From: Cellulophaga baltica
GTDB lineage: Bacteria > Bacteroidota > Bacteroidia > Flavobacteriales > Flavobacteriaceae
Reading direction: 5' to 3'
NCBI RefSeq assembly: GCF_018861125.1
Contig: NZ_JAHKQN010000019.1
Span: 1-64,000, forward strand
DNA: 64,000 nt
The notes under the pieces were generated by a model, which had not been told where the DNA came from, searched no databases, and was given only the letters and a program-made list of their open reading frames with translations. Position numbers and translations under genes: made by a program. Shown here piece by piece: positions 32,425 to 46,354 of this stretch. Each line of letters starts with the position of its first letter. Position 1 is the first letter of the stretch.

Positions 32425-32613
32425 GCTTGTATTTAAACCTGTAATTAAACATCGATATTTTTTATTATAATCGATTGTTGCATTTACTTATAAATGTCAT
32501 CATTTAGTATTGTCACTAAAACTGTTTTAAATAGAGGGTAAATAATCTTCTTAAATTGTATCATAAGTTAAAGACTTACAAATGCAGTTAAAACATGTAA
32601 AACTCCTCAGTAG

Positions 32614-33237
32614 CTATTTACTAAATAGATAAATTACATTACCAATAGCTATTGCACCAGTTAAACAACCTAAAATAAAGTCCATTTTAGCGGCAATAAA
32701 ATTCAATCTATGTTCTATTTTTTTGGCAACCACAGCGTAAAGCGTGTACAGTGTAAATGAGCCTATTGTAGAACCAATAGAAAAGTAAAGTGCGTTTGTT
32801 AAACTATACTCAAAATACTCAAAACCAATTATTAGTGAAATAAACGTAAAATAAAACGGAATAGCCATCATATTTAATAATGACATTAAAATACCATAGA
32901 AGTATGATTTTGATTTCGGAATTTCTTTAGCCTTTACCTTATCTTTTGATGTAAAATAAAGTCTAAAAAAATTAATGGATAATAGAAATAAAATACCAAT
33001 TCCTATTTTTTGAATTGAGGTAATATATTCTGAATTTTTCATTAAAATATTTGCCAAGTAAGCGCCTAAATTAGCTTGAAAAAACAAAACAGTAGCATAA
33101 CCTGCAATTAAGTAAAACGTAGCATTTTTACCATTTCTTAAACTATATTTTACAACAGTTAAATTTAAAAAACTAGGTGTAATGCTCCCTAAAGCAGCAA
33201 TGCAAAAACCTAAAAGCAAACAGATTAAAAAGTTCAT
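32614..33237 (-). CDS. LysE-family exporter
   Basis: A 207-residue membrane protein with six hydrophobic segments and the LysE/RhtB pattern: an N-terminal GFCIAALGSITPSFLNLTVV helix and a second repeat starting near residue 110 (YGILMSLLNMMAIPFYFTFI). Family members export amino acids or small metabolites. The substrate is unknown. Confidence 0.8.
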   Translation of the reverse strand: MNFLICLLLGFCIAALGSITPSFLNLTVVKYSLRNGKNATFYLIAGYATVLFFQANLGAYLANILMKNSEYITSIQKIGIGILFLLSINFFRLYFTSKDKVKAKEIPKSKSYFYGILMSLLNMMAIPFYFTFISLIIGFEYFEYSLTNALYFSIGSTIGSFTLYTLYAVVAKKIEHRLNFIAAKMDFILGCLTGAIAIGNVIYLFSK

Positions 33238-33665
33238 AGTTAATTATTGTATAGCAAATAACTATAGAAATGAACTAATAAATTAATACGTTCCCTATTT
33301 TTAATGACTCTTAAACGTTTTTAGTTAAATGCTATATTTAACTTTTTAGAACTTAGTACTGTAAACTTATTTATTGTAAGAAAGTGAGCAGAGAATAAAT
33401 AGTAGAACTTAACTTAAAGGTATAGTGGCTTAAGTAGAATACGTGTAAGTTTATATTTCTTACCAAAATTTGACACATAAATTGCCTCATTGCGGAAAAC
33501 CGCAAGGTTAGTACCTGCTTAATTATCTAAATTTGAAGCAGTAAGGTTTTGTATTGTTAATAAAACTGTTAAAAAGAGATGAATGTTTTACACAATATGT
33601 TGCTTTAACCTGCTTATATTGTACCACAAATAAAATAAGAATTTTCGACTTTTAATTGTGGAGGC
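33238..33665. other. Non-coding region left of the cassette array
   Basis: No gene was recognised. A small palindrome TGCGG-AAAA-CCGCA lies at 33491-33504, and TAAATTTG (33528-33535) fits a -7 promoter box pointing into the array, a possible analogue of an integron cassette promoter. No integrase gene is present on either strand. Confidence 0.35.
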
Positions 33666-33756
33666 TAAAAACGTAAAGTTATACAAAACTTCCGCATAGC
33701 CACCCAAAATAGCTGTATAAGAGGAGGAAAGTTCCGTATATAAACAAGTTATGTGC
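33666..33756 (+). repeat. Probable attC-like site 0 (left edge of array)
   Basis: AAC at 33670-33672 with GTTATACAAAACTTCC (33678-33693) can pair, with bulges, with GGAAAGTTCC and TATATAAAC (33727-33745) ahead of GTTATGTGC at 33748. The right end is certain from its complement at 34684. The left arm is the weakest of the five. Confidence 0.45.
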
Positions 33757-33775
33757 AAGCTAAAAAAACATTTTG

Positions 33776-34111
33776 ATGTCATTTGAAACACGTACTCCAG
33801 ATTTTATAGCAGAACTGAAATATCGGACTACGGAAGAGGGAGGTCGACGGACACCTGCCAGTTCAGGTTATAGACCGCATGTGAAGTTTCCGTTTTCGAA
33901 AACGATGACTTCTGGACAACAGACCTTTATTAGACAAGACTCGGTTAATCCAGGCGAAACAGTTAAAGCTGAAATCATGATTCTTTCTCCGCAGTTTTTC
34001 GAAAATATGCTGGAAATAGGAATGGAATTTGAAGTAGGAGAAGGTTCGCATGTAGTCGCGACTGGAAAATTGATTGAAATCCTCAATACAGATTTAATAA
34101 AAGGTTTATAG
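33776..34111 (+). CDS. Stand-alone EF-Tu domain III-like protein
   Basis: A 111-residue protein aligned by eye with the third domain of elongation factor Tu: DFIAELKYRTTEEGGRRTPA and SSGYRPHVKF correspond to the EF-Tu segments around GGRHTPF and GYRPQF, and PGETVKAEIMIL and VVATGKLIEI match the later strands. There is no GTPase domain. The frame also offers TTG at 33773, but ATG 33776 is preferred. It is the first gene of cassette A (starting at 33748) and lies ten bases before the HEPN-like gene, so the two probably work together. Function is unknown. Mimicry of EF-Tu is one possibility. Confidence 0.75.
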   Translation: MSFETRTPDFIAELKYRTTEEGGRRTPASSGYRPHVKFPFSKTMTSGQQTFIRQDSVNPGETVKAEIMILSPQFFENMLEIGMEFEVGEGSHVVATGKLIEILNTDLIKGL

Positions 34112-34121
34112 AACACGTAAT

Positions 34122-34691
34122 ATGCACTTGGATTCAGATAAACATACTCTTAAGGGAAAAGAAGTTGAAAGATATTTTGATTTCAATCAAGCACTAATTG
34201 AATTTTCGGATTTGTTTAATCAAACCGAGACTAATGAACGTTCAATTGCAATATTAGGTGGGACTTTTTTGGAGATGACCTTGGAACATGTTTTATATTC
34301 ATTTCTGCCGGAATATGATAAGCAAGTTGAAAAACTATTTGAATTTAATTCTCCTTTGGGGAATTTTAGCAATAAAATACAGATGGCTTTTTGTTTAGGG
34401 TTAATTGAAAAAATCGTCATGCAGGACTTGAATTTAATCCGTAAAATCCGAAATAAATTTGCGCATCAAATGTTCGTGGACTTTCAAGATTCTCAGATTG
34501 AATCATGGTGTAAAGGACTTGAATGGCATAAAATTTCATTTATGGATTATGTACCCGAAGGAGCAACCAATTTGATGCTATTTCAAGTCGGAGTAAATCA
34601 ATTAATCTCAAATCTTAATGGACATATTAGCATCGCACGAGGCGAAAAACGACATATACTAAACAACTTTGGGAAAAAAGCCAGCACATAA
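34122..34691 (+). CDS. MltR/DUF4145-type HEPN-like protein
   Basis: A 189-residue helical protein with the MltR-like pattern: NERSIAILGGTFLEMTLEHV, SPLGNFSNKIQMAFCLGLI and DLNLIRKIRNKFAHQ. The last segment contains RNKFAH, the R-x4-H motif of HEPN folds (about residues 110-115). The family contains the mannitol operon repressor, but outside that context such proteins are often toxin- or defence-linked. Its stop codon lies within the R'' end (GCACATAAC, 34684-34692), so the gene fills its cassette to the last base. Confidence 0.72.
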   Translation: MHLDSDKHTLKGKEVERYFDFNQALIEFSDLFNQTETNERSIAILGGTFLEMTLEHVLYSFLPEYDKQVEKLFEFNSPLGNFSNKIQMAFCLGLIEKIVMQDLNLIRKIRNKFAHQMFVDFQDSQIESWCKGLEWHKISFMDYVPEGATNLMLFQVGVNQLISNLNGHISIARGEKRHILNNFGKKAST

Positions 34692-34885
34692 CAATGGCTA
34701 TAGCAAATAGGGCGGTAAGTGCTGAATTTAAAGGCTTGAGCGTGTTTGCTAATTCCGCCAAATCTTTTGGATTTGGCAATTAAAAAAGAAAAAATAATTA
34801 CAAAACAAAAAGCTATGGCTCGCAGACCAGACGGAAACGAAAAGTTTCCTTGCCTGCCCTACTTGCCATAGCCGAACCGTTGTGC
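34684..34885 (+). repeat. attC-like site 1 (202 bp)
   Basis: Left arm AACAATGGCTATAGCAAATA with GGGCGG pairs with the right arm TGCCCTACTTGCCATAGCCG just before CCGTTGTGC (mismatches and an unpaired spacer near the tips, as in attC). The apex holds an internal perfect hairpin GCCAAATC/GATTTGGC (34757-34777). Confidence 0.8.
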
Positions 34886-34904
34886 TTAATTTACCACGAA
34901 ACCA

Positions 34905-37139
34905 ATGATAGATAGAATTAAACAAATAGAAGGAGTTGGAAAGTTTCTTTCTGCTAAAAACTTAGGTGGATTGAAATTTAGTGAATTCAACTTAATTTAT
35001 GGTGGAAATACCAGAGGTAAAAGTACTTTAACTGCTATTTTTAAATCATTAAAACTAGGAGACAAAAGTGTTATCGAAGGTAGAAAAACCTTCGGAGTTT
35101 CTTCTCAAAAAATAGTTATTCAATTAGCAAATGAAGGAGAAATATCCTTTTCTAGTAACAAATGGAATAACGGAATTAAGGATATTATAATTTTTGATGA
35201 AGATTTCATTAACAATAATGTTCATCTGGGTGGTCAAATAATTTATGATAACCAAAAAAGTTTGAATTCAATAATTATTGGAGAGGAAGGACAAAAGTTA
35301 GCTATCGAAATAGAACAATTACAAAGTGAAATAAGTAAAGTTACTGCAAACAAAAAAAAACACGGAAATATTTTTACAAATAGATTTCCTGAAGCACCAA
35401 TAACATTACAGAAATTCAGAAAACTTAAGAATATAGAAGATATTGACAAAGAAATTTTAAAAGTTGAAGCCCAAATTGACGATTATAATAATCAAGACAA
35501 TATAAAATCGAAATGCAATCAAATTGAAAATGTCTTTTCTTCGATTCCAGAATATTCAATTATCAACCTTTTATCTAAACATTTTAAATTAAACAAGGAA
35601 TATGTAATTGAACATATTCAAAAAACTTGGAACAAGTCTGAGAACTCATTTAATTTCCTACAACAGGGTTTTCAATTGCTTAAGGAAGAACCTAAAGACT
35701 GTGTTTTTTGTGGTCAATCACTGAATATTGATGCTTTAAAATTATTAAATGAATATTCTAAATTATTTTCTAAAGAATTTATCGATTTTCAAAAGCAGAT
35801 ATCGTCAGTAATAAACGACTTCAATAACTGGAACATAGAACTTGCTATCAGTCAAATAAAGACAATAGGTGGAATGATTAAAATTAACATTGACATTCCT
35901 AAAGATAAACTCATTGAATTAAAAAATGAATGCAACAATGAATTTAATAAAAAATTGAATGACCTTTCATATTCTATAAATTTTCAAGAATTTGAAGAAC
36001 TTATCAAAACATTTGAAGACATAAAAGAAGAATATAATACTCAAAAGAAATCGAAATTAAAAGAAATCAATATCGATTTGAAAGAGTTAAAATCAAAACT
36101 TTCAACATTACAGTTTACTAAAATCAGATATTCAACTACTGAAAATTGGGAGAGTTATTTTGAGAAAAAAGATGATTTAGACAAAGAATTTAAATTACTA
36201 AAACAGAAACGAGAACAAAAAAGGGAGGAATTAGAAATTTATGGTAGAGAAATTTATAAAAAAAATCATCAGACAATAAATGAAGTTCTATCTAACCTTC
36301 AAGCAGATTACAGACTTGATGAATTTATACCTTTGAAAAAAATAATTGGTAAAACTGAGAGAATTTTTTCTTTAGTTTTTTATAATAACCACAAAATAAC
36401 TCTAGAGACTGAAAACTCTGCAATCCCAAATTTCAAAAACTCATTAAGCGAAAGCGATAAAAGAGTACTGGCTTTTTCATTTTTCATCTCTCTTTTAAAG
36501 AATAATGAAAAATTAAATAATAAAATTATAATTCTAGACGACCCTTTTTCAAGCTTAGATAAAGAAAGAAGAAGAGCAATTATCAAAGAGATTCAAAATA
36601 TTTCTTTTAATAGCACTATGTCAAAACCTAAACAAATAATTATTTTAACACACGAACTTGATTTTTATAAGTGGTGTTTAATTAAGTTTCCTGAAGCGAC
36701 AGCTTTAGAAATACAAAATGAAGGAATGCAGGACGGAATTAAAAAAAGTACAATTTTAAGAACAAATAAAGAATTATATCTGGAAAGTGATACTCGGAAA
36801 GATTTAAAAGAAATCATTAAACTAATTGATAATAATATTACACCGACTGAAATTGAAGGGTTATTTTCAAAATCTAGAAAAATATTAGAAGACGTGTTTA
36901 CTAAAAAATATTACAGTCATCTTAAAGAAGATATTAAGAGTAGAAAGAGCATAAGAACTTTTACTGAGACATTAAAGTCTAATAATGTCAATCAATTTGA
37001 AACACAAAATAAGTTTAGTCAAATTATAAACCTTTGTGACGATTTAAATATTGAATTGCATAATAATGAATTAAAGAATGAAGGAGAAAATGGAATAAAC
37101 GTACTTCAAGACTTTATAAAATGTTTAGAAATAATATAA
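34905..37139 (+). CDS. RloC-like AAA_13 ATPase with zinc-hook-type CxxC
   Basis: A 744-residue SMC/ABC-type ATPase. Walker A is GGNTRGKST at residues 33-41. Long coiled coils flank a CVFC pair (Cys 266 and 269), which resembles a zinc hook. LSESDKRVLAFSFFISLL is the ABC signature, and Walker B is IIILDDPFSSLD near residue 545, followed by the H-loop ILTHELDF. This architecture is shared by RloC and related AAA_13 proteins; RloC is a DNA-damage-responsive anticodon nuclease. The C-terminus carries RKILE and later LHNNE, but a full PrrC-type nuclease triad cannot be confirmed. It is the only gene of cassette B (34879-37154). Confidence 0.78.
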   Translation: MIDRIKQIEGVGKFLSAKNLGGLKFSEFNLIYGGNTRGKSTLTAIFKSLKLGDKSVIEGRKTFGVSSQKIVIQLANEGEISFSSNKWNNGIKDIIIFDEDFINNNVHLGGQIIYDNQKSLNSIIIGEEGQKLAIEIEQLQSEISKVTANKKKHGNIFTNRFPEAPITLQKFRKLKNIEDIDKEILKVEAQIDDYNNQDNIKSKCNQIENVFSSIPEYSIINLLSKHFKLNKEYVIEHIQKTWNKSENSFNFLQQGFQLLKEEPKDCVFCGQSLNIDALKLLNEYSKLFSKEFIDFQKQISSVINDFNNWNIELAISQIKTIGGMIKINIDIPKDKLIELKNECNNEFNKKLNDLSYSINFQEFEELIKTFEDIKEEYNTQKKSKLKEINIDLKELKSKLSTLQFTKIRYSTTENWESYFEKKDDLDKEFKLLKQKREQKREELEIYGREIYKKNHQTINEVLSNLQADYRLDEFIPLKKIIGKTERIFSLVFYNNHKITLETENSAIPNFKNSLSESDKRVLAFSFFISLLKNNEKLNNKIIILDDPFSSLDKERRRAIIKEIQNISFNSTMSKPKQIIILTHELDFYKWCLIKFPEATALEIQNEGMQDGIKKSTILRTNKELYLESDTRKDLKEIIKLIDNNITPTEIEGLFSKSRKILEDVFTKKYYSHLKEDIKSRKSIRTFTETLKSNNVNQFETQNKFSQIINLCDDLNIELHNNELKNEGENGINVLQDFIKCLEII

Positions 37140-37147
37140 AAAACTAA

Positions 37148-37344
37148 GCACAACAATGGCTATAGTTAATACGGGTTTTGGTGCTTAACCCAAAGTTCAG
37201 AGCTTTTAACTAAGTCCGCCAAATCTTTTGATTTGGCTTTAAAAATGAAAAGATAAAACAAAATAAAAAGCTTTGGCTAAGTGCTTAATTGGAAATTAAT
37301 TACTTTTAATTCCCGTACTAACCATAGCCTAATCGTTACCACAC
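37148..37344 (+). repeat. attC-like site 2 (197 bp)
   Basis: AACAATGGCTATAGTTAATA plus CGGG on the left pairs with CCCGTACTAACCATAGCC (37314-37330) on the right before CGTTACCACAC. It has the same apex hairpin GCCAAATC/GATTTGGC (37218-37237) as site 1, although the outer stems differ in sequence. Confidence 0.8.
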
Positions 37345-37358
37345 ATTTGAGAAAAAAT

Positions 37359-37976
37359 ATGACTAAAGAAGAAATAATAGCACATTGCGACCGAATTATT
37401 AAAGACGCTCAAAATCAACCTCACGGTGGACTGACTCAAGCTCGTGAATTTTTGAGAGTTGTCGCTGGCGAAGAAAGTTCTTTCTTTAAGACATTATCTC
37501 AGATTCAAAGTCGGGCGATTGATGCACAAAAGTCAAATAGAGTTCGTGAAGTATTAACATCATTTTCTCAATTTGTACAGAACGACCTTTTACGGAGTAT
37601 TTCTTTAGAACGTGAAATCCAAATCGATACAGTATCTGATTATCTCGAACAAGCAGAAAGTTTACTCAATGACAAAAAAGTTCATCCAGCTGCGCCAGCA
37701 GTTATTATCGGAGCATCATTAGAGGAATTTTTAAGAAACTGGTTGGAAGAAGAGGGAACTGATTTGACGAAAATTAAAAATAGCCTTGATGCATATTCGT
37801 CTGAATTAAAAAGGTTAGAAAAAATAACTAAACAAGACGTTAAAGATATAGTTTCTTGGGGCGGAACTCGAAATGATGCTGCTCACGGACATTGGGAAAA
37901 TGTTGCAGATAAGAACAGAATTAAAATTATGCTTGACGGAGTTAATTTATTTATGAGAAAATACGGAACGGAATAA
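37359..37976 (+). CDS. Small HEPN-domain protein
   Basis: A ~205-residue helical protein. ATG 37359 lies 24 bases into cassette C. The longer frame from 37281 would begin inside the attC-like site and is rejected. The C-terminal half reads as a HEPN domain: HPAAPAVIIGASLEEFLRNW, then a DIVSWGGTRNDAAHGHWENV helix with RNDAAH (R-x4-H, about residues 171-176), the RNase motif of HEPN toxins. The N-terminal half has no recognisable domain. It stands alone, without an obvious nucleotidyltransferase (MNT) antitoxin. Confidence 0.7.
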   Translation: MTKEEIIAHCDRIIKDAQNQPHGGLTQAREFLRVVAGEESSFFKTLSQIQSRAIDAQKSNRVREVLTSFSQFVQNDLLRSISLEREIQIDTVSDYLEQAESLLNDKKVHPAAPAVIIGASLEEFLRNWLEEEGTDLTKIKNSLDAYSSELKRLEKITKQDVKDIVSWGGTRNDAAHGHWENVADKNRIKIMLDGVNLFMRKYGTE

Positions 37977-37980
37977 AAAC

Positions 37981-38185
37981 GTGTGGTAACAATGTATATA
38001 AAAAATAGCGCGAGTCATTGCTAAAACAAAGATTCGGGCATTTTTAGGAAGTCGCCAAATTTTTAAATTTGACAAATTCCCAAAAATAAAATAATTAATA
38101 AAATTTAAAAATTCGGCTTGAATTTATTCCGAAAAGTTATCGCTTATTTTCAGCGCTACTTTTCATATACGAGCCGTTGTATGCC
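37981..38185 (+). repeat. attC-like site 3 (205 bp)
   Basis: GTGTGGTAACAATGTATATA with AAAAATAGCGC pairs with GCGCTACTTTTCATATACGA before GCCGTTGTATGCC. Apex hairpin GCCAAATTTTTAAATTTGAC (38054-38073) is a variant of the one in sites 1 and 2. Confidence 0.8.
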
Positions 38186-38215
38186 ATTAAAAACCAGCAA
38201 AATCAATTAATCAGA

Positions 38216-39364
38216 ATGGATGGAGGATATTATGCAATAAAAGGATTTGAATTTCAAATAGACAAAACACTTCTTGAAGTTCTTACCTCGTCTAGTAATG
38301 ATTCAGTGGTTAGACTTGAACAAATTCAAGACATTGATACCGATGATTACGTTATGCAGGTAAAGTACAAAGAAGCGACAAAATTGAATCCTTCTGTTAT
38401 TCGAAAACCTATAATTCAATTAATTGAGGAATATAGTTCTGATCCGAACAAGGACTATATTTTATATTGTTATTTCGCTGATAATAATGGCTATAATGAA
38501 ACGGTAGATTCTGTACTTCTTGACAAGATTTTAGGTAAGGAGGAAACTACTTTTTCAGTCTCATTAAAGACCAATTTTTTAACTAAGTTCAAACTTCGTT
38601 TTTCTCCTGAATTTCAAAATCAGTATGACATAGTAATAGATAAATTGCAAGAACTTTCTTTTTGCGGTTCTCAAGATGATGCGCGATATTATTACTCTAT
38701 CCTTGTTGATTTCTTGCGCAAAAAAGTAATAAACAATCCACCTTCAGATTTGGGTTCGAGACAAGTGACCAAGGGGGAATTACTTTCTCATCTAAACAGT
38801 GGCAGACGAATTGTATTTATGCCTGCATACAAAGAGTTTATTGGACAACAAGAATATTTCAAATTACTTAAATCTCGTTTTCTTAGGCCAAGAAAGAATC
38901 AAAATACAATCTTCAGATTTGGAAATGTGGAAGTGGAAGATTCTTGCACCCTTGGATCTCTTACGCATCAAATCGTAGAAAAACACTACTACAAAGCAAC
39001 TCATGATGTCAAGCCGTTAACTTTTATTATTACAGACGATAAAATTGAGGATGTAAAAAAGCATTTTATATCACAGAATTGTCCTTTTAATGATGGTTGT
39101 GAGACAATTCAGTTTAACCAAAAACTTTTTGAATCACCTGCTATCATCAATAAGAAAATCTCAGGAAGAAGGACAACCAATAGTTTATCAAAAACTTCAT
39201 TCAAAGCCAGATTGGTTTCAGAGTCTACTTTTAGTCAGATGTCTGAATTCGGAATCCAAGGTTCCTGGGTATTAATAAACACTCCCAGACACCAATTAAT
39301 CGGTGAAACGGACTTCCAAATAATTAACCAATTAAACACTCAACAAATACTAAAACTCTTTTAG
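38216..39364 (+). CDS. DUF4297/Cap4-type dsDNA endonuclease, partner of HerA
   Basis: A ~382-residue protein whose N-terminus matches the DUF4297/Cap4 nuclease fold: GGYYAIKGFEFQIDKTLLEV, then VRLEQIQDIDTDDYVMQVKY, the E-x-D and Q-x-K residues of a PD-(D/E)xK-type active site (about residues 32-50). The remaining ~300 residues have no family I can name. The frame opens with TTG 38177 inside the cassette-start sequence, so ATG 38216 is preferred. It ends one base before the herA-like gene, and both share cassette D. Such pairs are known as DUF4297-HerA antiphage systems. Confidence 0.72.
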   Translation: MDGGYYAIKGFEFQIDKTLLEVLTSSSNDSVVRLEQIQDIDTDDYVMQVKYKEATKLNPSVIRKPIIQLIEEYSSDPNKDYILYCYFADNNGYNETVDSVLLDKILGKEETTFSVSLKTNFLTKFKLRFSPEFQNQYDIVIDKLQELSFCGSQDDARYYYSILVDFLRKKVINNPPSDLGSRQVTKGELLSHLNSGRRIVFMPAYKEFIGQQEYFKLLKSRFLRPRKNQNTIFRFGNVEVEDSCTLGSLTHQIVEKHYYKATHDVKPLTFIITDDKIEDVKKHFISQNCPFNDGCETIQFNQKLFESPAIINKKISGRRTTNSLSKTSFKARLVSESTFSQMSEFGIQGSWVLINTPRHQLIGETDFQIINQLNTQQILKLF

Positions 39365-39365
39365 C

Positions 39366-41153
39366 ATGGACTCAAATAATTTTAAAATCATTAACGTTTC
39401 TTCAACTTCACTAAGTATTGAAATCGTTGATCCCACCCAGTTTGACGACCAGTTCAATCTAGGGAGTTACATAAAAATTCCATATAAAAACAACGATACT
39501 AAATTCGTTGTAGGTATAATAGAAAACTATCGTATTAAAGATGAAGATAATGGCGATGACGAAACAGACTCAACTCCTCCATCGTTTGTCCTAGAGGTTA
39601 AACTCACTGGTACAATAGATACAGAAGGTGGTGCTCCAATATTTGAACGAGGTGGGCATGGCATTCCACTACCTCCTAATAACGGAATTGCCTTGCTAAC
39701 AGAGGAAGAGTTGAATGGGATATTTACCACAAAAATGTCCGAAAATGAAAGGTTTTATTTTTCAGAATTAACAACAAAGGAAATACGTATTCCTGTTAAT
39801 GGCAACAAATTTTTTAATAAACACTTTGCTATAGTTGGATCAACAGGGTCTGGAAAATCCCATACAGTTGCTAAAGTAATACAAGAAGCTGTTAGTCAAA
39901 AAAATGGACAGTATGATGGGTTGAACAACTCTCACATAGTAATCTTTGACATACATGGTGAATATGAACAAGCATTTCCAGACGCTCAAATTCTTAATGC
40001 TTCAAATCTTTCGCTACCATATTGGATGTTAAATGGAGATGAACTCGAACAGTTATTCTTAGACACTGGTGATCGCAACAATTACAACCAATCTTCCGTG
40101 CTAAGGAAAATAATAACAGAAAACAAAAAAAAGCACAATTCAGGTATAGATAAAATTCATTTTGATTCACCTTTAAAATTTGACATTACAGAAGTTTATA
40201 ATTGTCTGTATAATGTGCAAACAGAATCTATTAATTCTAAGGCTAGTAACAGATATATGGTTGTTGGAGAATGCGAAGGCTATAATGCTGGAGATTCAAC
40301 TACTATCGAAAGTGGTCTTGAACTAACTCAAGAAGCTAGAATACTTAAATATTTTGAATCCAAGTTAGAATTTTACCCCAATAAAAATCAAAGTGTTGCG
40401 AATGGAGTTTATGCCGATGGAACACTAGATAAGTTTGTCGAAAGATTAGAGAATAAACTCCAGAATTTAAGATTAGAGTTTCTTTTTGGAAATCAATCTA
40501 GGGATATTTCATTTGAGGATACTGTCAAGCAATTTATTGGTTTTAGAGATGATAATAAAGCCAATGTAACTATTATAAATTTGGGAGGAATTCCTTTTGA
40601 AGTTCTCAGTATAACCGTTTCTTTAATCTCAAGAATTCTATTTGATTTTGGCTTCTTTTTCAATAAAACTCTACAACAAGGAGAAAAAACAAAAACTCCT
40701 ATTCTTCTCTTATATGAAGAAGCCCATATATATGTTCCTAAAAGTGATCTGCTAAAATATAAAGCATCAAAACTAGCTATTGAAAGAATTGCGAAAGAAG
40801 GTCGAAAATATGGAGTTACATTGGGTATTGTAAGTCAAAGACCTTCCGAAATATCAGAAACAATATTTTCTCAATGCAATAATTTTATAGCCATGAGACT
40901 AACAAATCCTGAAGACCAAAACTATGTAAAGAGATTGTTGCCTGATACTTTAGGTAATTTAACTGAAACTCTTCCTACGCTTCAGTCTGGAGAAGCATTG
41001 TTAATAGGTGAATCAATTGTTCTCCCTTCTTTAGTGAAAATAGAAAGATGTGATCCTGAACCAAAATCATCTGACATTGAATACTTTGAAATATGGAAAG
41101 AACAATGGAAGAATGTAAACTTCGAAAACATTCTAAACGAGTGGAAAAATTAA
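39366..41153 (+). CDS. HerA-like ATPase of a DUF4297-HerA defence pair
   Basis: A 595-residue HerA/VirB4-superfamily ATPase. An N-terminal HAS-barrel-like beta domain (~1-100) precedes Walker A GSTGSGKS at residues 158-165, HIVIFDIHGEYEQAF with the HerA-type D-x-H-G-E, the Walker B segment LLLYEEAHIYVPK near residue 447, and the arginine-finger region GRKYGVTLGIVSQRPSEISE with sensor SQRP. HerA forms hexamers that activate or load a partner nuclease, here the adjacent DUF4297 protein. An internal NurA partner is absent, which favours defence over repair. Confidence 0.85.
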   Translation: MDSNNFKIINVSSTSLSIEIVDPTQFDDQFNLGSYIKIPYKNNDTKFVVGIIENYRIKDEDNGDDETDSTPPSFVLEVKLTGTIDTEGGAPIFERGGHGIPLPPNNGIALLTEEELNGIFTTKMSENERFYFSELTTKEIRIPVNGNKFFNKHFAIVGSTGSGKSHTVAKVIQEAVSQKNGQYDGLNNSHIVIFDIHGEYEQAFPDAQILNASNLSLPYWMLNGDELEQLFLDTGDRNNYNQSSVLRKIITENKKKHNSGIDKIHFDSPLKFDITEVYNCLYNVQTESINSKASNRYMVVGECEGYNAGDSTTIESGLELTQEARILKYFESKLEFYPNKNQSVANGVYADGTLDKFVERLENKLQNLRLEFLFGNQSRDISFEDTVKQFIGFRDDNKANVTIINLGGIPFEVLSITVSLISRILFDFGFFFNKTLQQGEKTKTPILLLYEEAHIYVPKSDLLKYKASKLAIERIAKEGRKYGVTLGIVSQRPSEISETIFSQCNNFIAMRLTNPEDQNYVKRLLPDTLGNLTETLPTLQSGEALLIGESIVLPSLVKIERCDPEPKSSDIEYFEIWKEQWKNVNFENILNEWKN

Positions 41154-41164
41154 ATAGTAAAAAC

Positions 41165-41236
41165 GGCATACAACAATATGTATAGTGCATAGCACCCTTC
41201 GGAATGCTACGACACCATACATTAACCGTTGGGCAC
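41165..41236 (+). repeat. attC-like site 4 (72 bp)
   Basis: A compact palindrome of classic attC length. AACAATATGTATAGTGCATA with GCA pairs with TGCTACGACACCATACATTA before CCGTTGGGCAC. The right tip GTTGGGC fits the integron R' consensus GTTRRRY exactly. Confidence 0.8.
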
Positions 41237-41255
41237 AAGCTGAAAAAAACAAAAT

Positions 41256-43043
41256 ATGAGAAAAACATCATCATCACATTGGAAAAATCTTTCTGACTTA
41301 GAAGGTCTTTTATTTTTTGCGCAAACTGTAGATGAAATGTTATTCGAATACACTTTGGACTCATACAAACCAATGGCATTAAATTGTCGATTATTATGTA
41401 TTGAATGCTTAAGTACTATTGGAGAAATTAGAGATGGCTTTATGCCAAAAAAAAATCTTCAATCTGTTTTAGAAGAGTTAAAATGGAGTTTGGAGAAAGA
41501 TATTGCAGCCAAAAGCATTTTAGGGAAAAAATTTGAATTTTATTTAAACCAAATAAAACCTAATGAAATAAAACTTAAAACTTTAGAAAATGTAATAAAG
41601 TTTATTCATAACCATTTTAGTCAACGAAAATATCTCAAAGAAGTAAAAAAATGTCTTTATCAGCTTGTTGCGGAGGGCAAACAAAAAGAAAAGATAAAAA
41701 ACCTAACAAGCTCTCTGCTTACTGAGTTAATTAACTATGGTTATCATCCGAATCATATTGACTATCAGAACTACCATTTCTTTTTTGACACATCTAAAAA
41801 CCAAGAAGTAAAAGAAGTAAAACAGCTAAAAGACTTCTACAATTTATTTAATTTCGAATCAAATGAATATACAGTAGTCTTTATTGGAAGTATATTGTTT
41901 AGAGAATTTAAAGAAACATTAAATAAATATGATATTGTTGTTACTAGGACATACAACTGCTTTTCAACAATACCAGGAGATATTTCATTCCAAAAAAGTA
42001 GACGAAATAACGAATCATTCATTATTTGTTCTAAAGTTGATGGTTTGGACCACCACTCTGCTAGAGAAAATATAGAAAAATTTCTAGGACAAGTAACCAA
42101 TCTCTTTAATTTCTTTCATCACAAAGAGAAACCAAAAATAAACGACATTAGTATAGTTTCTCGAACAAGTGACAATTATGTTGTTGTAATTGATAAACCA
42201 ATAAAATCAATTCTAAAAACAAAAAGTGATGAATATCCTAACATTGCTGCGAAATCAGTCGAAAAGGTTCTAGAAGGTTTTAAATTCGATGGCGAATCAA
42301 CATATCGTTTTTCAAGAAGCATAGATTTACATAGTGCCGCACTTTCAGCTTCAGCAATTGAAAATCAAATGCTTGATTTATGGGCAGCATTAGAAACTTT
42401 AATACCCAAGTCTAACGAATCAAATAAGGATAGAATCGTACAAATAGCAGACCAGCTAATTCCATTTCTACAAATCAATTACATTGAAAAACAGTTTGCT
42501 GAATTATATGATAACTTAGAAAATTGGGATAGTGATTTTTTTCTTGAGCAACTAAAGAAGGCAAAAGGTTTTGAGGAAAATAATCCAATTGTATCAGTAG
42601 CAGCACTCGTAACTTTAAGTGAGAATAAGGATTTACGTTTAAAAATCTATGAAAAATTAGATGACTTTCCTTTGCTAAAAAATAGAATATATGGTATTCA
42701 CGAAATGTTTAATTGTCCTAAAAACATAAAGAAAGTCCTTTCTAAGCATTACACTAAAATAGGTTGGCATTTAAGAAGAATTTATCGCACTAGAAGTTTA
42801 ATTATCCATTCAGGCTCATATCCTACATACACTCAAATTTTAATTGAACATCTTCATAATTATTTAGATATCCTTGTAAAAAAGTTGATTGAATTAGGGA
42901 GCGAGAAGCAAATTGGAACAATTGAACAGGCAATTTTAGAAATAAATACAACTTTAGAGTATCATAATGATTTATTGGATAAGCACCAAGATGAGGATTT
43001 AACAATAGATAATTTCAAAGAATCTCTACTAGGAATAAAATAA
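41256..43043 (+). CDS. ApeA-like HEPN protein
   Basis: A 595-residue protein with a large N-terminal part of no clear family and a C-terminal HEPN-like domain: the AIENQMLDLWAALETLIPKS helix near residues 365-385, and HLRRIYRTRSLIIHSGSYP near 507-525 with R-x4-H (RSLIIH) followed by SG, as in ApeA-type antiphage RNases. A YxxRN/S-x-IxHSG pattern is typical of that group. It is the only gene of cassette E (41228-43057). An abortive-infection role is inferred from the family and from the company of other defence-like cassettes. Confidence 0.68.
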   Translation: MRKTSSSHWKNLSDLEGLLFFAQTVDEMLFEYTLDSYKPMALNCRLLCIECLSTIGEIRDGFMPKKNLQSVLEELKWSLEKDIAAKSILGKKFEFYLNQIKPNEIKLKTLENVIKFIHNHFSQRKYLKEVKKCLYQLVAEGKQKEKIKNLTSSLLTELINYGYHPNHIDYQNYHFFFDTSKNQEVKEVKQLKDFYNLFNFESNEYTVVFIGSILFREFKETLNKYDIVVTRTYNCFSTIPGDISFQKSRRNNESFIICSKVDGLDHHSARENIEKFLGQVTNLFNFFHHKEKPKINDISIVSRTSDNYVVVIDKPIKSILKTKSDEYPNIAAKSVEKVLEGFKFDGESTYRFSRSIDLHSAALSASAIENQMLDLWAALETLIPKSNESNKDRIVQIADQLIPFLQINYIEKQFAELYDNLENWDSDFFLEQLKKAKGFEENNPIVSVAALVTLSENKDLRLKIYEKLDDFPLLKNRIYGIHEMFNCPKNIKKVLSKHYTKIGWHLRRIYRTRSLIIHSGSYPTYTQILIEHLHNYLDILVKKLIELGSEKQIGTIEQAILEINTTLEYHNDLLDKHQDEDLTIDNFKESLLGIK

Positions 43044-43054
43044 AGCCAGTGCCC

Positions 43055-43121
43055 AACAAAGAACTGAGGTAAAAAACAAACAAAATCTTCATTAAATTTA
43101 GATACTATTATTCTAGGCTTA
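43055..43121 (+). repeat. Dispersed repeat, copy 3 (right edge of array)
   Basis: Matches copies 1 and 2 from AACAAAGAACTGAGGTAAAA through CTAGGCTTA. The terminator hairpin region then diverges into a longer, imperfect hairpin ending in GAGC and eight T residues (about 43144-43154). Its first AAC is the end of GTGCCCAAC (43049-43057), the R'' of cassette E, so the repeat takes the place of a full attC here. Confidence 0.75.
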
Positions 43122-43288
43122 TACATTCAAAAATAGATTATTTGAGCTTTTTTTTAGTATATTGATTTTCTATATAATTAGGCAATATTAAAGCTTAAGT
43201 TTTATAATGTAGTCTTCCTGATTTATAGTTAAATTTTATATATAACAAGCTTAATACGTTATTAAATAAGCCTATTTCTCCAATTTAA

Positions 43289-43753
43289 ATGAACAAGAAA
43301 TTTTTATTTATAACTATCGTAATTTTCGGATTCGGACTATTTATGTATTACTTAGCTTAGTTATTTGCACCCGGAAGTTATGCAAGATCTGAAACCTACG
43401 AGTTTCAAATATCAGAAGAAATATTTATTAAAATAATTGACGAAGTCAAACAGGAACATCAAGAACTTAAGGTGCCATCTTATGGTTATGAAGATGGAAG
43501 AAAAAATAATTTGTATTCTTTTTATTTTTATTACCAAGATAAGAATCAAATTATTCATACGTGGGCAAGACCAAAGAGTGAAACAACCACAACATTTGCA
43601 TTTAGTGCTTATAAAAGCGGCAATGATTTAGGAAATTGGACTGATGCAAATAAATATTTTTGGTGGTGGAAAAATTCGAAAGCAAAAAAAGAATTTGAAG
43701 CTAGAATTTTATATGAAATTGAAGAAAATATTAAAAAAAGAAAGCTTAACTAA
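43289..43753 (+). pseudogene. Small membrane-anchored protein gene with internal stop
   Basis: ATG 43289 opens a hydrophobic N-terminal helix (KKFLFITIVIFGFGLFMYYL) that hits TAG at 43358-43360. The same frame continues without interruption (LFAPGSYARSETYEFQISEE and onward) to the stop at 43751-43753, giving a coherent ~153-residue protein if the TAG is read through. A CAG-to-TAG change would explain it. A truncated product could start at the Met at 43472, but it would lack the anchor. It ends nine bases before the SRPBCC gene. Confidence 0.75.
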
Positions 43754-43762
43754 AGAATTAAG

Positions 43763-44245
43763 ATGGCAAAAATAAAATTAACCACAGAAATTGTAGCGGA
43801 TATTGATATTGTATTTGATTTATCAAGAAGTATTGATTTACATAAAATTTCTACAGAACAGACTAATGAAACGGCAATTGCAGGCAAAACTAGCGGTTTA
43901 ATTGGTATGAATGAATCTGTTACGTGGCGAGCAAAACACTTTGGTATTTATCAACGGCTTACTTCAAAAATAACAGCGTTTGAGCGTCCAAATTTGTTTG
44001 TAGATGAAATGGTTAAAGGAGCTTTTAAGAGTTTTAGGCATGAGCATCATTTTACTAAACTTGAAGCTGGTACTTTAATGACTGATTATTTTTATTATGA
44101 GTCTCCATTAGGTGTTTTGGGTAAGGTAGCAGATAAGTTATTCTTATTAAATTACATGACAGACTTGTTAACCGAGCGCAATAGAATTGTTAAAGACTTT
44201 GCAGAATCTGGTAAGTGGAAACAATTAGTGTTAACCGACGCCTAA
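43763..44245 (+). CDS. SRPBCC-family protein
   Basis: A 160-residue START/SRPBCC-type beta-alpha protein (KLTTEIVADIDIVFDLSRSI, then SVTWRAKHFGIYQRLTSKIT and KSFRHEHHFTKLEAGTLMTD). Such proteins hold a hydrophobic ligand in a deep cavity. Many bacterial members are listed as cell division inhibitors or cyclase-like without proof. No signal peptide. The ligand is unknown. Confidence 0.8.
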   Translation: MAKIKLTTEIVADIDIVFDLSRSIDLHKISTEQTNETAIAGKTSGLIGMNESVTWRAKHFGIYQRLTSKITAFERPNLFVDEMVKGAFKSFRHEHHFTKLEAGTLMTDYFYYESPLGVLGKVADKLFLLNYMTDLLTERNRIVKDFAESGKWKQLVLTDA

Positions 44246-44461
44246 AAAATGGAATCAGTAAATAAAGCTAATGCTTTAGAGAAGTCTGCATAAAGTATAA
44301 TTGAGTATTAGTAACTTATAAATACCTGATGTTTAACTAAGTTTTTATTACGGTTCATTTAGTTTATTTTTTTGTAAAAAAAGAAGCTGATTTAATGCGC
44401 TTTTATATGTATTTTTAGGTCGCCATTAGCTTTTTTTAGTAACAAGAATACCCTTAATACC

Positions 44462-46354
44462 ATGAAAAAAAGTACTATTTTAATAGTTGCGCTAATTGCA
44501 TTTTTTGCTGTAACAAATTTTAAACTTCAAGCACAATCTAAAGAACTTCAAGAGTTAAGAGAGATTGCGATTATTGATCAAAAGGTTAGGATACCTATGC
44601 GCGATGGTGTGCGTTTGGTGGCTGATGTGTACCGTCCAAAAACAGACAAAAAAGTCCCAATTATATTTTCACGAACACCATACAACTTCAACAATTGGGT
44701 TGATGGTAAAGAAATTACCACTATACGAGTTAGAAAAGCATTAGAAGCGGTAAAAAAAGGCTATGCATATATTGTTGAAAATGAGCGTGGGCGTTATTTT
44801 TCTGAAGGCGTATGGGATATTTTAGGTACCCCTGTAACTGATGGTTACGATACCTTTACGTGGATGAAAAATCAACCATGGTCTAACGGTAAAATTGCTA
44901 CGTATGGTTGTTCTTCTTCAGCAGAATGGCAAATGGCAGTAGCAGCCTTAGATCATCCGTCTCATGCCGCAATGGTATCACAAGGTTATGGTGCAGGTAT
45001 TGGTCGTATTGGTGATATATACGAACAAGGTAATTGGTACCGTGGTGGTGTTTTTCAAATGTCATTTATGGCGTGGTTGTATCGCGTAGAGCATGATAAG
45101 TTTAAGCCTCGAATTCCTAAAGATGCAACGCAAGAAGATTTAATTAGAATATCAAGGTATTATGATTTAGACCCTGAAAATCCGGCAGTAGATTTTGAAC
45201 AGGCTTTTGATTATTTACCCATACAAGATGGTATTAAAAATTTAAAAGGGAAAACGGAGATTTTTGATAAAATGATTCGTCGTGAACCCAATGATGAAGC
45301 TTGGTATAAAGGTGGTTTGTATCATGATGATATGGAAATTAAAGTGCCTAGTTTTTGGTTTGCTTCTTGGTATGATATGTCTATAACGCCCAACTTAAAA
45401 TTATTTAATCATGTACGTAAAACTACTAAAGATAAGGCCGTTAGAGATAACCAGTATTTGATAATTTCGCCAAATTTACATTGCGGTTTTACTCGTGGCT
45501 CAAGCGAAAATACCATGATTGGTGAGCTAAATGTAGGTGATGCACGTTTAAATTATACCGAGCAGATTTATGATTGGTATGATTTTCTATTAAAAGGCGA
45601 GGATAACGATTTTAAAGCGAAAACACCTAGAGTACAATATTATACGATGGGAAGCAACAAGTGGCAAGCATCAGAAACCTGGCCACCTGAAAATTCTAAA
45701 TTAACTACGTATTATTTAAACAGTAATGGTGATGCAAACAGTTTGTATGGTGACGGAATATTGAGCACTACAAAAGCAAAAACGAATAACCTTGATACTT
45801 TTACGTACGATCCAATGTTACCAATACCATCTTTTGGTGGCACTCCATGTTGTGATGATAGTATATTACGAGGTGGTGCTTTTGATCATCAAGAGGAAGA
45901 AACCAGAGATGATATTTTGGTGTACACATCTGATGTTTTAGAAAAAGGTATTGAAGTAACTGGTTTTATAGAATCAACCCTTTATGTATCGTCTGACGTA
46001 AAAGATACCGATTTTACCATTAAACTTATTGATGTTCATCCTGACGGAAAAGCGTACAATTTAGATGAAACCATTCAACGAGCGCGCTACCGTGAAGGCT
46101 ATGAGAAAGAAGTATTTATGAAAAAAGGAGAAGTCTATAAAATAGACTTAACGGCTATGGCTACCAGTAATTACTTTAAAAAAGGACACCGCATTCGTAT
46201 TGAAATTTCAAGTAGTAATTTCCCGCGATTTGCTCGTAATTTAAATACAGGTGGTAATAATTATGATGAAAAAGAGGGAATTGTGGCGCATAATACCATA
46301 CATCATTCTTCAAAATATCCGTCACAAATAAAATTGCCTATAATTAAAGATTAA
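44462..46354 (+). CDS. Secreted CocE/NonD-family alpha/beta hydrolase
   Basis: A 630-residue hydrolase of the S15-like CocE family. A signal peptide (~1-24) is followed by the family start [15 protein letters not shown]. The nucleophile elbow is GCSSSAEWQ (near residue 150), a variant of the usual GxSYxGxxQ. The C-terminal jelly-roll domain contains the [20 protein letters not shown] pattern. Members hydrolyse esters, glutaryl-acyl side chains or X-Pro peptides. The substrate is open. A small secreted protein gene follows 23 bases later. Confidence 0.85.

Follow-up and report, generated by a model that had tools for sequence, protein, structure and literature searches.

Five consecutive gene units in one direction, delimited by palindromes, occupy part of a contig of Cellulophaga baltica (NZ_JAHKQN010000019.1, positions 1 to 64,000; this whole stretch of 64,000 nucleotides is called the window). 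Are they mobile cassettes, and which enzyme would have moved them? The original prediction, made from the letters alone, saw there attC-like sites without a local integrase. We consider it highly probable that the region is the cassette array of an integron-type system, in which a tyrosine recombinase lacking the insert typical of the integron integrase IntI would act on a folded site. We propose the name patchless-integrase integron for a system that would work like an integron and lacks several canonical traits of IntI and attC. The proposal draws on cassette structure, unit-specific pairing, a covarying stem and strand asymmetry, and on an attI-like position, integrase linkage, a change of content between two species and a duplicated cassette, all read at the level of sequence.

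The part from 33680 to 43133 opens with an attI-like leader, after which five cassettes alternate with four complete hairpin sites, all on the plus strand; the five predicted units were thus all recovered. The leader (33680..33756) carries a predicted crossover G^TT, with GTT at 33748-33750. Then come cassette 1 (33748-34692), site 1 (34690-34881), cassette 2 (34879-37154), site 2 (37152-37337), cassette 3 (37335-37990), site 3 (37988-38178), cassette 4 (38176-41174), site 4 (41172-41230) and cassette 5 (41228-43057). Counted from AAC to GTT, the sites measure 192, 186, 191 and 59 nt; three are long and one belongs to a short class, as announced, the lengths first given (197-205 and 72 bp) having included part of the flanks. 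With our R1 covariance model, of which none of the four is a training row, they score 64.8 bits (E 1.2e-11), 66 bits (E 6.5e-12), 57 bits (E 7.7e-10) and 57.1 bits (E 7.5e-10), respectively. Their bottom strands fold with z values of -3.74, -3.30, -2.44 and -2.34, while the leader alone is not unusual in a bottom-strand fold (z = -0.55). Closure of the units by palindromes holds for these four complete hairpins and fails for the last unit: after 43057 there is no complete site, and about 75 bp there match the right end of an insertion sequence (IS) of the IS110 family that inserts into the sites (remnant 43058..43133, plus strand, just after R' of the last site).

Each cassette is a unit running from GTT to AAC whose start pairs with its own end, over 9, 10, 10, 10 and 9 bp in cassettes 1 to 5, slightly more uniform than the 7-10 bases claimed at first. 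In cassette 1, GTTATGTGC pairs with GCACATAAC, and in cassette 5, GTTGGGCAC pairs with GTGCCCAAC. Pairing of units 2 and 3 was also scripted, and that of units 1 and 4 was read from the sequence. Among 38 consecutive units of this genome and its relatives (identical sequences removed), 28 pair over at least 8 bp against about 1.1 expected when ends are swapped. The same holds for 95/116 units in 20 further regions, against 3.2 with swapped ends, which upholds the earlier view that chance does not explain the pairing. These regions (157 matches) were picked for model matches in genomes outside the model, and unit pairing is the only independent test that they offer. Of their site rows, 154/157 were entered (one was cut at a stretch end and two were opposite-strand echoes), and units in which no AAC or GTT could be located were left out of the count. 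At one locus (L296), a run of 15 sites has 14/14 units paired. As in attC, a GTT/AAC core with complementary ends would thus be restored in the circular cassette.

A comparable pairing was found beside the integrase genes described below. In 29/35 rows (28/34 distinct), a GTT standing 25-136 bp beyond the integrase stop pairs over 9-12 bp with a cassette-like end, the position expected of attI; rows without such a GTT are L055, L059, L061, L069, L077 and L185. The chance of a 9-bp match is, by a rough estimate, about 0.2 per row, so that a single row with just 9 bp is weak evidence; 10 bp or more are reached in 21 of the 29, and rows of the type found on contig C2 have a common motif and position. 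Three pairs of loci are duplicate records (L056/L187, L060/L184 and L067/L188), and the distinct count takes L067/L188 once. On sequence grounds, three results assign the crossover to the right-hand G^TT of the site, where integrons have theirs: pairing of unit ends begins with GTT, a site travels with the gene preceding it in a repeated cassette of Galbibacter (see below), and the GTT after the integrase stop pairs with a cassette-like end.

Site anatomy was then described on 80 sites, identical sequences removed, each having on one side a unit whose ends pair over 8 bp or more. They follow the order AAC, 3-nt spacer, 17-nt arm, variable middle, 17-nt arm, right spacer (5-6 nt in 77/80) and GTT; the detector demanded AACA[AC] and CGTT, hence those letters carry no evidence. 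Lengths concentrate near 123 and 188 nt, and two sites have 56 and 59 nt. At 15 ordinary arm positions, 90.9% of pairs are Watson-Crick compared to 58.1% with partners swapped. Pair counts on 23 diverse sites agree with this, and the covariation score of the latter is 0.465, against 0.101 for shuffled and at most 0.069 for slid alignments. At the two other positions, the left arm has A and the right arm has C (position 7 in 70/80 sites, position 12 in 77/80), a mismatch on the top strand and a G.T wobble on the bottom strand; A.C pairs were penalised in the site search. The bottom strand is the stabler one in 72/80 sites, and in 79/80 when arms alone are folded. The conserved A.C positions favour bottom-strand folding. 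Very short sites (AAC-AATARTAACC-GTT) were also seen after cassette ends at L054:3713-3734 and L054:8029-8050, and are perhaps deletion forms.

Conserved hairpins between genes of the same strand could also be terminators or regulatory RNA structures, an explanation that we regard as extremely improbable. The three terminator-like sites in 33300-43300 (shuffle mean 3.2) all lie off the four hairpins, and a search of 32500-44500 against Rfam gave no match at E up to 1. The strand favoured by the asymmetry is opposite to the transcript sense, and pairing of a unit with its own end, changing content and integrase linkage would all be left unexplained. For a Pc promoter that would drive the array, a scan covering the sigma-70 type found 49 against 45.1 expected, which is background level.

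Which recombinase could act on such sites? None of the eight Phage_integrase matches of the genome is on the window contig (C3). Two tyrosine recombinases, C2:8630-9640 and C34:3143-4258, head other arrays and share their direction. Against the IntI profile TIGR02249 (cut-off 265 bits), their best pieces reach 118 and 104 bits, and no classical IntI passes the cut-off in this genome. The profile was dropped as a marker: all 14 control genomes give a sub-cut-off signal, and the own-genome scores mean little alone. The distance between anchors flanking the insert region is 64 residues in 18/18 aligned array integrases versus 107 in the 13 IntI measurable by motif; after correction for a one-residue difference between the anchors, a gap of about 42 is left. 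The array recombinases are thus about 42 residues shorter where IntI has its specific insert, and alignment of PDB 2a3v to the integrase falls into two pieces that skip chain residues 180-247. In a tree that holds 5/21 IntI rows and does not settle the deep order, a branch (100/99) separates these five from the array-linked rows. Structural comparison ranks Xer first and VchIntIA third, a ranking that does not decide ancestry. These features agree with the integrase of an undescribed lineage that had been suggested. The C2 integrase itself has 336 amino acids from a TTG, its upstream frame being interrupted (L040:9640-9700, minus strand); close relatives have 368.

Sites and integrases are arranged together in a directed way. 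Of 90 model matches near collected integrases, 63 lie downstream in the orientation of the integrase and 21 lie upstream and diverge from it, so that 84/90 point away from the integrase; of the rest, 5 are upstream with the strand of the integrase, 1 overlaps and 0 are downstream opposed. This count covers 90/92 rows of L054-L123; left out are L110 7004 (E 0.03), which is upstream and divergent, and, at L067, the opposite-strand echo of another match (E 0.027), which would be downstream opposed. The underlying scan had 98 sources, from which L074-L076, L079, L080, L083 (Algoriphagus) and L124-L127 are absent. As for the window, the leader ..CCGTATATAAACAA^GTT resembles ..CCGCATATAAACAA^GTT after the C34 integrase. 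By analogy, the C34 or the C2 integrase of the genome most likely serves the array in trans, or did so formerly, in line with the integrase elsewhere that the original prediction had proposed.

The window array has four sites and no integrase nearby (0/8 matches on C3), which corresponds to what IntegronFinder terms a CALIN (cluster of attC sites lacking an integrase), as far as passages of PMC9024848 define it (at least two sites). The CALIN type of the original prediction is therefore retained in this descriptive sense; the sites differ from canonical attC and an attI-like leader is present. A stronger version would be an ordinary CALIN, made of canonical attC left or moved by a classical IntI. 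Layout, GTT core and outer pairing of 9-10 bp are those of attC, in which, according to passages of PMC2727003, strand choice depends on an extrahelical G and the outer stem can extend to 9-11 nt; moreover, classical IntI is common in other classes of the phylum, above cut-off in 105/395 phylum genomes. On the other side, the best IntI piece here has 118 bits for a cut-off of 265, and one of 107 genomes matching the IntI survey is marked as the same class. The predicted likeness to attC is confirmed in layout, GTT/AAC pairing and bottom-strand bias, but not in canonical features: GTTRRRY occurs in 7/79 sites, and the arms pair gaplessly, with A.C (bottom G.T) at two positions and no single-sided extrahelical base. 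In addition, R1 has no match in 17 classical IntI regions of 4-19 kb each (a motif scan re-found the recombinase in 15, the other two resting on the IntI genome survey). We thus give the ordinary CALIN little credence. Arrays L263+L264 (adjacent) and L265, fetched together with the IntI regions, adjoin insert-less integrases. In one genome (G201; L265, L266), a classical IntI coexists with an insert-less integrase that stands elsewhere, beside an array of the new site type.

If the window holds an insert-less integron-type array, the content of that array should vary by cassettes. A species of the same genus (G164, the one species in this small comparison) aligns piecewise with the window up to 33751 and resumes at 44410. 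Its cassettes at this locus differ from those of the window, and between these limits only 43059-43133, the IS remnant, is common to both. The left limit of homology is the predicted left crossover. The original prediction had been staked against related strains keeping the same units and against lack of an attC-like fold; units differ in G164 and the stem covaries. In Galbibacter, integrase, attI-like site and eight sites stand together, and Galbibacter orientalis has one 336-bp cassette four times with 94-97% identity. The hairpin following the repeat is of one type in 4/4 copies, while the preceding hairpin is of that type in 2/4 and of others in 2/4. Change thus goes by whole cassettes, both in these repeats and between window and G164, where the IS blurs the right boundary.

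The IS110-family element deserves separate consideration. Ten exact copies of its right-end motif AAAGAACTGAGG... occur in the genome, mostly with no transposase adjacent, and by eye the copies follow cassette-like ends; in the window, the element is represented at 43058-43133 and 1644-1860. A complete element, with a transposase matching PF02371 and PF01548, lies within a site in a Cellulophaga locus (L054:1861-3082), in the left spacer, the same place as the remnants. We had tried the AAAGAACTGAGG tail as a chromosomal end of arrays and rejected it, the complete L054 element pointing instead to an IS110 right end. Start pairing of 9-10 bp with the end before the tail occurs in 6/20 own-genome rows, some of them chance matches. 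Some IS1111/IS110 elements target attC. The present case is alike in that an IS110-family element sits inside a site, and differs in its position, the left spacer of a new site type.

Such an association, with repetitive sites of which several are near contig ends, could suggest transposon-like or IS-derived units, or shuffling of blocks by homologous recombination between repeated sites. We hold this very improbable. The IS is itself housed within a site, and none of the four complete sites of the window contains it. Ends are complementary within a unit and differ between units, which homologous exchange cannot create, and the orientation of 84/90 matches away from the integrase also argues against it.

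The integron-type reading would work as follows. A cassette would be a GTT-genes-AAC unit with a hairpin site at its 3' end, and in the excised circular cassette the two ends would meet and complete the palindromic site. The bottom strand would then fold, GTT/AAC forming an outer stem extended to 9-10 bp specific to each cassette, followed by an asymmetric unpaired spacer (3 nt versus 5-6 nt) and a 17-bp inner stem bearing two conserved bottom-strand G.T wobbles, and ending in a part that varies. This folded strand would be recognised by an insert-less tyrosine recombinase, which would cut at G^TT and join the cassette to double-stranded attI beside the integrase gene or to another site; arrays could thereby grow, shrink and reorder. 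By analogy, the folded bottom strand would be the substrate and the insert-less integrases the catalysts, and we infer that the enzyme may be active at present.

Several points weigh against this scheme. Recombination is deduced from anatomy and analogy, and linkage does not prove which enzyme acts, in a genome with eight Phage_integrase matches. The resemblance of the window leader to attI covers about 17 bases. Around integrases of this clade at eight Algoriphagus loci, our detector saw no sites within 10 kb. The 90.9% pairing is inflated, the 80 sites having been picked for good pairing with AACA[AC]/CGTT required. A.C is less constant in further regions (102 and 95 of 139 sites, a set found with a model that had learned A.C), and 10/38 and 21/116 units fall short of 8 bp. 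Finally, the right boundary with G164 is no clean crossover: the IS remnant is common and 43134-44409 also differs.

How widespread is the system? In this genome, a simple pattern of the left arm occurs 23 times versus 3 for a control. The search for more sites that had been suggested gave at least 63 at covariance-model E up to 0.001 (a lower bound, from at most 150 scored candidates), forming arrays on other contigs too. R1 matches 248/395 Bacteroidia genomes at E up to 0.01, in 142/197 genera, and 156/390 phylum genomes at E up to 1e-4; both surveys scored no more than 8 candidates per genome, and site counts are lower bounds. Among 10 control genomes of other phyla with integrase relatives, nine gave no match and one, an Atribacterota metagenome-assembled genome, gave three. 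The latter sites (G889 C30 and C139, genome of L101) may reflect transfer, or else a contig of foreign origin. Two different genomes (L058:12058 and L290 unit 4064, minus-strand count) have a cassette with 92% identity over 1326 bp, which hints at transfer between species.

The system thus looks common in Bacteroidia, where few integrons were reported. The parts of the IntegronFinder 2.0 paper at hand credit Bacteroidetes proper with a single complete integron, that of Salinibacter ruber (PMC9024848), and passages of other reviews count the phylum Bacteroidota among integron carriers. The titles and abstracts searched, preprints being outside their scope, contain no description of such sites or of Bacteroidota arrays with insert-less integrases. 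Relative to integrons, including sedentary chromosomal ones with IntI, attI and attC, the arrays described here are alike in their single direction, attI-like site beside the integrase, palindromic 3' site, GTT core, outer complementarity restored in the circle and bottom-strand bias. They differ by an integrase that lacks the IntI insert and falls outside the IntI group as sampled, by lack of the GTTRRRY consensus, by paired G.T wobbles in place of extrahelical bases, by sites mostly of ~123 or ~188 nt and by an array often on the integrase strand. Compared to Xer and to the 'integron-like' simple tyrosine recombinases of PMC8138268, the present enzymes have an extra N-terminal part of about 80 residues, and they are linked to arrays, whereas the passages of that source describe no such linkage for insert-less members.

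We lean, by a narrow preference, to the view that insert-less integrases and wobble-marked attC make up a separate integron class, the main one of Bacteroidota and present in most Bacteroidia, either older than IntI or derived independently from Xer-like enzymes. Extrahelical bases would then not have been needed for strand choice, nor the IntI insert for substrate binding. The need for that insert in single-strand recombination, and what picks the strand, become testable with this system. Bacteroidota are abundant in many habitats and, if active, this would be a large overlooked system of gene exchange among them.

The cassettes carry diverse genes. Cassette 1 encodes an EF-Tu-domain-3-like protein of about 111 amino acids and a 189-residue MtlR-like protein (Pfam PF03143 and PF05068, just above cut-off). 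Cassette 2 encodes a 744-residue AAA_13 ATPase (Pfam AAA_13) of the PADLOC family PDC-S06 (E 1.5e-58), and cassette 3 a 205-residue protein (37359-37976) with no PADLOC match and a sub-threshold Pfam match. In cassette 4, a DUF4297-type protein (38216-39364; PADLOC DUF4297, E 4e-27) precedes a HerA-type ATPase (39366-41153; PADLOC HerA, E 4.1e-225), a pair that appears defence-like. The 595-residue protein of cassette 5 (41256-43043) has weak similarity to ApeA (PADLOC E 9e-8). Since genes in 3/5 window cassettes resemble PADLOC defence families, one of the three weakly, the system may also shuffle phage defence. PADLOC on 8 proteins from two other arrays gave two weak matches, and one window unit compared with plasmid records had no match. 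At its other end (1-1640), the window apparently begins within another cassette that ends ..GCACCACAAC before an IS110 remnant and, by eye, carries divergent oxidoreductase-like and LysR-like genes.

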